From Prochlorococcus sp. AG-432-D11 (GTDB lineage Bacteria > Cyanobacteriota > Cyanobacteriia > PCC-6307 > Cyanobiaceae): DNA of 64,000 bases. Both the position numbers and the translations under genes were made by a program. Where the stretch lies: contig QCOP01000001.1 in assembly GCA_003212885.1 (NCBI GenBank), positions 1-64,000 of the forward strand. The letters run 5' to 3'. The notes beneath the pieces are model-generated. The model was not told where the DNA came from. It worked only from the letters and a program-made list of their open reading frames with translations, and did not search any database. Below, piece by piece: positions 31,411 to 34,922 of the stretch (positions are counted from its first letter, which is position 1; every line of letters starts with the position of its first letter).

Positions 31411-32616
31411 TTACACTGAATCGAGTGCTGCTACCCCTGGAAGGATCTTACCCTCCAGCAACTCTAGGCTGGCTCCACCACCAGTAGAAATATGAGACAT
31501 TTGATTGGCAAGACCGGCCTTTTCTACAGCTGCGACCGAATCTCCACCACCAATAATTGTGCAGCAGCCTTGATTGCTTAGTTCAGCCAATGATGAAGCA
31601 ATGGCATTAGTGCCATTTGCAAACTTATCAAATTCAAAAACACCCATTGGGCCATTCCAAATTACTGTTTTGCAATTACTTAGGGCTTCTTGAAAAACTT
31701 TAATTGAGTCAGGTCCTATGTCTAAACCCATCCAACCTTCGGGAATGGAATTTATAGATGTTATTTGGCTATTTGCATTTGGAGAGAAATCATCTGCCAA
31801 GACAACATCTGTTGGCAAAAGCAACTCAACACCTTTTAATTTTGCTTTTTCTTCAAGATCCTTTGCTAACTCAAGCTTATCTTCTTCTACTAAACTATTC
31901 CCTACTGAGAGCCCCCTAGCCTTATAAAAAGTGAAAATCATTCCACCACCAATTAATACCTTGTCACATTTATCAATAAGTGATTCAAGTACACCAATTT
32001 TACTACTGACTTTAGAGCCTCCAACAATAGCAGCGAGTGGGCGCTTAGGTGAATCAATCGCTCCTTGAAGATATTGCAATTCCTTCTCCATTAAATAGCC
32101 TGCAACATTTGGACTAAGAAATTGAGTTACTCCTTCAGTGGAAGCATGAGCCCTATGGGCAGCACCAAAAGCGTCATTTACGTATATTTCGGCATTGGCT
32201 GCCAATTCTTTGGCAAAAGTTTTATCATTTTTCTCTTCACCCTCCATAAAACGAACATTCTCAAGAAGAACTACTCCTCCCTCAGAAATTGATGATATTT
32301 TTTCAGCTGCATCAGGTCCAATACAACTATCAGTTTTCAATACATCTTGGCCAAGCAATTCAGAAAGTCTTTTTGCAACAGGTGTTAAACGCATTCCTTC
32401 GTTCACTTTCCCTTTGGGCCTTCCAAAATGAGCAGCAAGAATAACTTTTGCTTTTTTTGCAATCAAATCAGTAATGGTTGGAATTGCTGCTCTGATTCGT
32501 GTGTCATCAGTTATGTCACCGTTATCATTCACGGGTACATTGAAATCAACTCTTACGAATACACGCTTGCCGCATAGCTCCTCAGCGCCGAGACTAGAAA
32601 GAGAACGCTTTGCCAT
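31411..32616 (-). CDS. pgk: Phosphoglycerate kinase
   Basis: [36 protein letters not shown]. Confidence 0.99.
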
Positions 32617-32744
32617 GAGGTCCTAAATACGAATAAAAACTGAGCGACAATAACCCGAGATCGTTGCAAATTATTTTTTACTAAGCCAGAAGAGTCATCT
32701 GACCATTGGGAAAAAATCCTCAAATCCTATACCCTGACTAAAAT

Positions 32745-33097
32745 ATGTTTAAAAAAATCCTTTTCCCTATTTGTCAGAACCAAGCATTTTTCAACACTTT
32801 CAAAAGTTATCGACCTTACTAAGAGTCAAAGATCAGAAATCATTCATTAATTGAGAACTATCGCAAAGAAAAACAATATATACATATTTATTAAATAAAA
32901 CTATTGAACAATGTTTAGAAAAATAATTTTTCGCACGATAGAAAAACAGATAAAAATCTAAATCAGGTAATTTGAGGTGTTATCAAATAGATTTAATCGT
33001 GATATCTGTGAGGAATATAAATCTTAGAAGAGATTCAAGAGGTAAAATCAATCAAATAATTGAAATCATTACCTATACAGCTATGATAATCTCATGA
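32745..33097 (+). pseudogene. Decayed universal stress protein (UspA-family) gene
   Basis: Fragments in three frames: MFKKILFPI (32745), KVIDLTKSQRSEI (32803), IDLIVISVRNINLRRDSRGKINQIIEIITYTAMIIS* (32987-33097). Confidence 0.7.
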
Positions 33098-33954
33098 AAT
33101 CTCCTATTATTCAGTGGTATCCTGGACATATAGCAAAAGCTGAGAAGCACCTAAAAAATAATCTAAACAAAGTAGATTTAATTATTGAAGTCAGAGATGC
33201 AAGAATACCCCATTCCACATCTCATCCAAGTTTAAAGCAATGGATCAATAACAAAAAGCATATTTTAGTGATTAATCGAAAAGATATGATTTCAGAAAGT
33301 AATTTAAAAAAATGGGATCACAAATTGATTAATGAAGGTAAACAACCTTTTTGGTGTAATGCAAAAATCGGTCAAGGTATAAACGAAATTAAAGAAGCTG
33401 CTGTAAGAACTGGTACTGAATTAAATGCTCGAAGATTATCTAGGGGAATGCTTGCTAGACCTATTAGGGCACTCACTCTTGGATTCCCCAATGTTGGCAA
33501 ATCCGCTTTAATTAATCAATTAATGAAGAGAAAAATAGTTGCTAGTGCTCGTCGAGCAGGAGTAACCAAATCATTACATTGGGTTAGACTGGGCAAAGGT
33601 CTAGATTTACTTGATGCACCTGGAATTTTACCACCTCAACTTGATGATCAGAAATCCGCTCTAAAACTTGCTATCTGTGATGATATTGGTGAAGCAGCAT
33701 ATGACGTTGAATTAGTAGCTATAGCTTTTTTAAACTTGCTTGAAGAAATTACAGGTAAAAACTCGGTTCGCGCTGAATCTATTCTTCAAAAACGTTATGG
33801 AATAGAGATGAAAATTGATTTTAAAAATTCACATGAATGGTTAAAGCTCTGTGCTATTCAACATACTTCTGGAGATACAACAAGAATGGCTCAAAGATTC
33901 TTAGATGACTTCCGAAAATTACTCTTGGGCCCGATCTCTCTAGAACTTCCATGA
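33094..33954 (+). CDS. ylqF: Ribosome biogenesis GTPase YlqF/RbgA
   Basis: Circularly permuted GTPase: QWYPGHIAKAEK, NRKDM, GFPNVGKSALINQL. Confidence 0.94.
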   Translation: MKSPIIQWYPGHIAKAEKHLKNNLNKVDLIIEVRDARIPHSTSHPSLKQWINNKKHILVINRKDMISESNLKKWDHKLINEGKQPFWCNAKIGQGINEIKEAAVRTGTELNARRLSRGMLARPIRALTLGFPNVGKSALINQLMKRKIVASARRAGVTKSLHWVRLGKGLDLLDAPGILPPQLDDQKSALKLAICDDIGEAAYDVELVAIAFLNLLEEITGKNSVRAESILQKRYGIEMKIDFKNSHEWLKLCAIQHTSGDTTRMAQRFLDDFRKLLLGPISLELP

Positions 33955-34922
33955 CAATAGAAACGAAACAAGAAAATTTTGGTCATGGAGATGGAGAGCT
34001 CGTTGTACTTAGTTATACAAAACCATTACCGATGAGACTGGATAGATGGCTGGTAAGCCAAAGACCTGAACAAAGCAGAGCTCATATTCAAAAATTCATT
34101 ACTCAAGGGTTAGTAAAAGTAAATGGTGTCTTAGCAAAATCAAAAACACCTTTAAGACAAGGGGATGAAATTGCAATTTGGCTGCCCCCCCCAGAGCCTC
34201 TACCTTATTTAATTCCAGAAAAAATGGAATTAGATGTACTTTTTGAAGACGAACATTTGATAGTAATCAATAAACAGGCGGGCCTGGCAGTTCACCCTGC
34301 TCCAGGCAATAAAAACGGAACTTTAGTAAATGGATTATTAGATCACTGCAAAAATTTACCTGGAATTGGAGGCAAACTCAGACCTGGCATAGTACACAGA
34401 CTAGATAAAGACACTACAGGTTGTATTGTTATTGCCAAAAGCCAAGAGGCATTAGTCAACCTTCAAAAGCAAATACAAAACCGTATTGCATCCAGGAACT
34501 ACATCGCTATAGTTCACGGGGCTCCTCAATCAACAAAAGGTACAATCTGTGGTTCTATAGGACGTCACCCTGTTGATAGAAAAAAATATGCAGTAGTTTC
34601 GGACGATCTTGGTAGATTTGCTCGTACTCATTGGAAGTTAGAAGAAAGACTAGGAGATTATTCCCTAATGAGCTTCAAGCTAGATACAGGAAGAACTCAT
34701 CAAATTAGAGTCCACTGTGCACATTTCGGTCATCCGATCTTAGGAGACCAAACATATAGCCGATGCAAAAAATTACCTACTCAATTGCAAGGTCAAGCTT
34801 TACATGCTATCGAACTTGGACTTATTCATCCAAAAACAAAAAAAGACATGCTTTTCAACGCTCCTTTGCCTAAATCCTTCAATAAAGCCCTAACAATACT
34901 GCGTAAAAATATACTGCATTAG
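33951..34922 (+). CDS. rluD: RluD-family 23S rRNA pseudouridine synthase
   Basis: S4 domain; GIVHRLDKDTTGCIVIAK. Confidence 0.93.
   Translation: MTIETKQENFGHGDGELVVLSYTKPLPMRLDRWLVSQRPEQSRAHIQKFITQGLVKVNGVLAKSKTPLRQGDEIAIWLPPPEPLPYLIPEKMELDVLFEDEHLIVINKQAGLAVHPAPGNKNGTLVNGLLDHCKNLPGIGGKLRPGIVHRLDKDTTGCIVIAKSQEALVNLQKQIQNRIASRNYIAIVHGAPQSTKGTICGSIGRHPVDRKKYAVVSDDLGRFARTHWKLEERLGDYSLMSFKLDTGRTHQIRVHCAHFGHPILGDQTYSRCKKLPTQLQGQALHAIELGLIHPKTKKDMLFNAPLPKSFNKALTILRKNILH

Follow-up and report, generated by a model that had tools for sequence, protein, structure and literature searches.

What occupies the spacer between pgk and ylqF in this Prochlorococcus genome and, if it is a former gene, when and how often was that gene lost? 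The question arose in the window, by which we mean the whole stretch of 64,000 nucleotides that was analysed. An earlier note on this DNA had read three peptides in the spacer, each in a different frame, as consecutive parts of a decayed universal stress protein (usp) gene, and had considered it a recent loss and a rarity among streamlined genomes. We found no paper on a usp gene at the pgk-ylqF locus, or on its loss, in the open-licence literature.

Results

The gap measures 477 bp (32617..33093), rather than the 460 bp reported earlier, and has a GC content of 0.29 compared with a window mean of 0.37; in relatives with an intact usp it is mostly 508-515 bp long. Its left border is the start of pgk, as in all relatives surveyed. 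This divergent neighbour (31411..32616, minus strand) appears in the ORF list with 401 aa and was named phosphoglycerate kinase from the first reading and its protein sequence. To the right, the ORF list gives a ylqF/rbgA-type GTPase of 286 aa (33094..33954, plus strand), the presumed former downstream operon partner, with orthologs in 194 of the 201 genomes of the same family. It is followed by an ORF of 323 aa (33951..34922, plus strand) that overlaps the ylqF stop in an ATGA, and which we call an RluD-type pseudouridine synthase by inspection of its sequence alone. A six-frame check of both strands returned only short mechanical ORFs in the gap, which agrees with the first reading that no long ORF lies there and rules out a different intact gene on either strand. 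A conserved RNA was also rejected, with no Rfam match in the window locus and nine relatives. Regarding other signals in the gap, a promoter scan gave 3 promoter-like sites with 2.7 expected, and a terminator scan found none.

To place the gap in context, we surveyed 119 pgk-ylqF gaps of the same family, keeping the window's own gap (also L111) apart; L031 and L192 look like one genome counted twice. Of the 119, 62 encode an intact Usp at this position, with a single domain and a length of about 127 aa, so that relatives do carry the gene in synteny, the outcome in favour of the earlier note, which had proposed this check. L133, additional to these, is cut by a contig end and intact where readable. 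With 91.8 bits for PF00582, the intact low-GC copy L130 is above the cut-off of 24. Intact copies are found at the locus in the LLVII grade, in strains MIT1300xe (G057), MIT1307xe (G051) and MIT1341xe (G031) (strain names from PMC11559063). In most low-GC lineages with an intact copy there is one Usp match per genome, this copy being their only Usp. MIT1223 (G003, LLVIII) has no intact usp at the locus, and the same holds for G010 and G116, which we take to be SS120 and MIT9211, respectively. When genomes without usp at the locus were searched for any Usp, 14 of 15 had none; G060, also without usp at the locus, has three Usp genes elsewhere.

The 62 intact syntenic orthologs were used to build a profile in which the window copy takes no part, and we aligned it to the gap by dynamic programming, tolerating frameshifts and stops. 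The three peptides were found as first described, with MFKKILFPI at 32745, KVIDLTKSQRSEI at 32803, and IDLIVIS...AMIIS plus a stop codon at 32987-33097, each in its reported frame. The alignment gave 41.7 bits for 32745-32844 (profile positions 1-34, with one frameshift at 32788) and 24.3 bits for 32987-33037 (profile positions 92-108). All the pieces are on the plus strand. Piece 1 (32745..32787) comprises the ATG start and the first beta strand (MFKKILFPICQN-QA; profile positions 1-15). After the one-base frameshift, piece 2 (32788..32844) corresponds to helix 1 (FSTLSKVIDLTKSQRSEII; profile positions 16-34) and is 63% identical over 19 aa to ortholog L164 by tblastn. Piece 3 (32987..33097) contains the C-terminal 36 codons and the stop (IDLIVISVRNINLRRDSRGKINQIIEIITYTAMIIS), and from IDLIV to the stop it has the same codon count as intact orthologs, with no indel. 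Between pieces 2 and 3 lies the erased middle (32845..32986, plus strand), of 142 nt instead of the 171 in intact genes according to the distance between the aligned segments and the profile spacing (35-91); similarity to Usp was not detectable here by the frameshift-aware alignment. The TGA that ends the tail (33095-33097) overlaps the ylqF ATG at 33094, forming an ATGA (33094..33097, plus strand). This overlap, also pointed out before, is shared with intact relatives, in many of which the usp stop ends three bases into ylqF, reading GTGA or ATGA in 37 of the 62.

Regarding the significance of these scores, null maxima were about 19-21 bits in dinucleotide shuffles and 22.1 bits in 520 other window stretches, and the reverse complement of the gap gave 11.7 bits. 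As an independent check, in an hmmsearch of 3057 six-frame stop-to-stop segments from the window with a profile of the 62 intact orthologs, pieces 3, 1 and 2 ranked 1st, 2nd and 4th (E 0.0011, 0.02 and 1.5), with collinear matches at profile positions 91-124, 1-20 and 10-34. Single pieces score modestly alone (E 0.001-1.5), and a Pfam scan of pieces 1 and 3 gave no PF00582 match, piece 2 being too short for the scan. One could argue that three short peptides in freely chosen frames of an AT-rich gap came to resemble Usp by chance, the N-terminus MFKKILFPI being itself like a low-complexity string, but chance is ruled out by scores above every shuffle and every other window stretch, by three of the top four HMM matches falling in one gap and in order, and by the intact usp that most relatives outside the Prochlorococcus crown have at this position. 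The proposed identity as a decayed Usp is what the frameshift-aware search recovered.

The remnant has a frameshift near codon 15 and in-frame stops, which break its reading frame, and its middle is short by about 29 nt. Among the 30 conserved positions (those shared by at least 90% of intact copies), the window keeps 9, compared with 25-28 in intact low-GC orthologs; the other 21 have changed, mostly in the direction of A or T. Nondegenerate sites carry at least 26 changes in about 66 (0.39), and the GTRG and APCPVLVVP motifs of the tail are destroyed. These breaks were read from one genome of the species. We consider the gene dead because 21 of 30 conserved positions have changed, about 29 nt have been lost, and stops and a frameshift interrupt the frame. 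That sequencing or single-cell amplification errors broke an intact gene might be suspected of an assembly of the kind made from single amplified cells, 54% complete and in 57 contigs, but from such errors one would expect an indel or two with the rest of the gene conserved, and the count of lost conserved positions, the missing nucleotides and the intact flanking genes rule this out. No intact Usp (PF00582) was found in the genome assembly, which at 981 kb and that level of completeness may lack another copy lying elsewhere. The window copy is neither a functional Usp, nor a split gene, nor a sequencing error. We put at roughly 96% the probability that the gap holds a unitary pseudogene, the in-place remnant of a single-domain usp. 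Homology, synteny, the broken frame and the loss of conserved residues are all observed here, together with several decayed copies on separate branches.

Using the same frameshift-aware method, decayed usp was found above the null in L113 (G021), L141 (G042), L143 (G103), L146 (G054), L168 (G200), L172 (G132) and L217 (G127), and nothing above the null in the remaining gaps without an intact usp. The earlier note had taken a recognisable pseudogene to be uncommon in such genomes; at this locus, seven other branches carry one. In all sampled lineages of the LLI, LLII/III, LLVIII and HL types, usp is dead or gone. On a mixture-model tree built on Pgk and YlqF, the window falls within a group of 22 rows lacking an intact copy (support 91/94), beside LLI-, LLII/III- and LLVIII-type genomes; 19 of these rows have no trace of usp and 3 have a decayed one. 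The HL rows, also without usp, form a long branch outside this group in the mixture tree and lie inside a larger crown in a first tree (118 rows, LG+G4). In that first tree the window grouped with the HL clade, but with a warning of long branches, and the mixture-model tree leaves the window at the base of the crown without a fixed sister, so that we name no sister group for it. The intact-usp label has to change 8 times on the mixture tree (7-9 in bootstraps), and strongly supported branches alone force 3 changes.

Some gaps show the gene in other states. L148 (G138) has an open-frame usp with only 17 of the 30 conserved positions, against 25-28 in the other low-GC intact copies, and looks like a gene under relaxed selection on its way to death. 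L168 and L216 (G150) are close sisters, the former with a dead, mostly deleted usp and the latter with an open copy shortened to 119 aa, which makes them a good pair for watching usp die; G060 belongs to their genus. Finally, in L144 (G015) an open frame of 116 codons leads up to the ylqF start, and its best Usp match is 17.6 bits, below significance, so that this is either a very diverged usp or another ORF.

To date the loss, we simulated the neutral decay of low-GC intact copies with AT-biased, F81-like substitutions and an assumed 0.03 or 0.1 indels per substitution. The simulated copies had fallen to the total score of the window after about 0.2-0.3 substitutions per site, and hardly any still attained it beyond 0.4; the Usp signal was erased by about 0.5. 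From this simple model, which gives an order of magnitude only, we infer that usp died in the window's lineage roughly 0.2-0.4 neutral substitutions per site ago. Agreement of the window with the nearest relatives in the sample is 37-43% at the four-fold sites of pgk and ylqF, which is near saturation. With flanking sites near saturation and a decay of at most 0.4, the death would therefore fall on the branch that belongs to the window alone, later than its split from any relative in the sample. The recent loss that the earlier note had suggested is accordingly recent relative to the age of the lineage, as it appears younger than any sampled split, but probably old in absolute terms.

These values also bear on whether there was a single ancestral loss at the base of crown Prochlorococcus, with all crown lineages carrying one old pseudogene at varied stages of erasure. 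No sampled crown lineage (22 rows) has an intact copy, and several crown gaps have a like length of 475-482 bp, as if sharing a deletion of about 35 nt. However, the signal is erased by about 0.5 substitutions per site, yet crown lineages compared with one another are near saturation at the flanking 4-fold sites, so remnants as strong as the window's could not outlast the crown ancestor unless selected. Besides, the remnant-bearing L143 and L172 are placed apart within the crown. We consider one shared loss quite unlikely. Since a remnant becomes unreadable within about half a substitution per site, and each of the eight readable ones stands alone on its branch, separate deaths are the best interpretation of them; the independence of each loss follows from this reasoning and is probable rather than observed.

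Gap length shows a pattern of its own. Some other crown lineages resemble the window in having a gap of 475-482 bp, either by coincidence or through a shared deletion. In the LLI-type genus g56 (L121, L127, L132, L135, L139, L140, L150, L157 and L165), gaps measure 478-482 bp and lack a usp signal, and they align at 67-89% identity with only 2-10 indel columns; their first ~90 bases on the pgk side are nearly invariant, which suggests a conserved pgk promoter or leader. HL-type gaps have shrunk to 205-225 bp. In the HL-type g18 (L195, L197 and L201-L205) the 211-215-bp gap is 88-98% identical, compared with 72-87% at flanking 4-fold sites; being more alike than those sites, the shortened spacer is therefore under constraint.

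Discussion

According to these results, the following history can be proposed. Divergent from pgk, a usp gene of about 127 codons would once have headed a usp-ylqF-rluD transcription unit, and its translation would have immediately preceded that of ylqF, the usp stop overlapping the ylqF start. Decay would have proceeded by point mutations, the frameshift near codon 15, stops and a net loss of about 29 nt from the middle, while the flanks stayed unmoved. The 3' end of the remnant is still aligned to the ylqF start, presumably because the old usp stop and the ylqF start codon share bases that ylqF still needs. The remnant may now serve only as ylqF leader, within an interval that is probably also the divergent promoter region shared with pgk. 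Crown Prochlorococcus (LLI, LLII/III, LLVIII and HL types) would have lost, or be losing, the same gene, several lineages separately, and the cause may be that a stable oligotrophic habitat made a stress protein less necessary.

Whether the tail is still in use deserves attention. Its last 33-41 codons, ending at the ATGA, could be translated as a short leader ORF that couples to ylqF and is retained by selection. In the window, 47 codons without a stop lead up to the ylqF start in the frame of this tail. For 20 lineages without usp signal, the open frame is 56.9, compared with 50.6 +/- 2.1 in shuffles that keep the last 21 nt, with 0 of 500 shuffles as high. This excess is real against shuffles, but undetected coding ancestry could by itself lengthen the open frame. 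Besides, in five species of g56 with an alignable tail, changes are spread evenly over the codon positions (10, 9 and 8), whereas intact usp gives, for example, 11, 0 and 36. These counts show no coding constraint, several g56 tails carry stops or indels, and the APCPVLVVP motif is the one already gone from the window. Judging from these codon positions, a still-translated tail appears not supported in LLI-type genomes, and we regard it as a minor and unlikely rival to a dead gene. It is just as improbable that, following an ancestral relaxed need, the single usp of Prochlorococcus was inactivated separately many times after the crown split with each dead 3' end kept open as a ylqF-coupling leader frame.

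As a dead gene, the usp remnant is an ordinary unitary pseudogene, and the repeated loss at one locus of what is usually the only Usp is mildly interesting. The value of the pgk-ylqF interval lies in being a fixed place at which the stages of one gene, from intact through dying and dead to erased, can be compared among many free-living marine cyanobacteria, so that the speed of dead-gene disappearance in streamlined genomes can be calibrated. Here, such genomes lose sequence similarity much faster than length. Crown Prochlorococcus mostly does without any Usp, a state probably reached through repeated losses. Some of these would postdate the main genome reduction by a long time, which bears on whether gene loss in Prochlorococcus was a single early burst.

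Another Usp missing from Prochlorococcus is Slr0244, the two-domain Usp of Synechocystis (PMC11447641). Both are Usp-family genes absent from this group, but Slr0244 differs in its 284 aa with domains in tandem and in the role proposed for it, in state transitions; it would be at most a putative ortholog of the single-domain usp. The closest known counterpart is the single-domain PF00582 ortholog at the pgk-ylqF locus of marine picocyanobacteria, with which the remnant shares the locus, the ylqF stop/start overlap, and a collinear N-terminus, helix 1 and C-terminal DLIVMGTRGxNL. In contrast to that gene, the window copy has a broken frame, no recognisable middle and few of the conserved residues, and cannot make a Usp. 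In early Prochlorococcus, nonessential genes have been described to become pseudogenes and then be deleted (PMC10837832). The usp locus resembles this unitary pseudogene model in its in-place decay within an AT-rich reduced genome, with relatives at intact, decayed and erased stages in both. It departs from the model in having decayed several times separately, and in that length often outlasted sequence, with gaps of 475-482 bp in which no Usp is recognisable any more.
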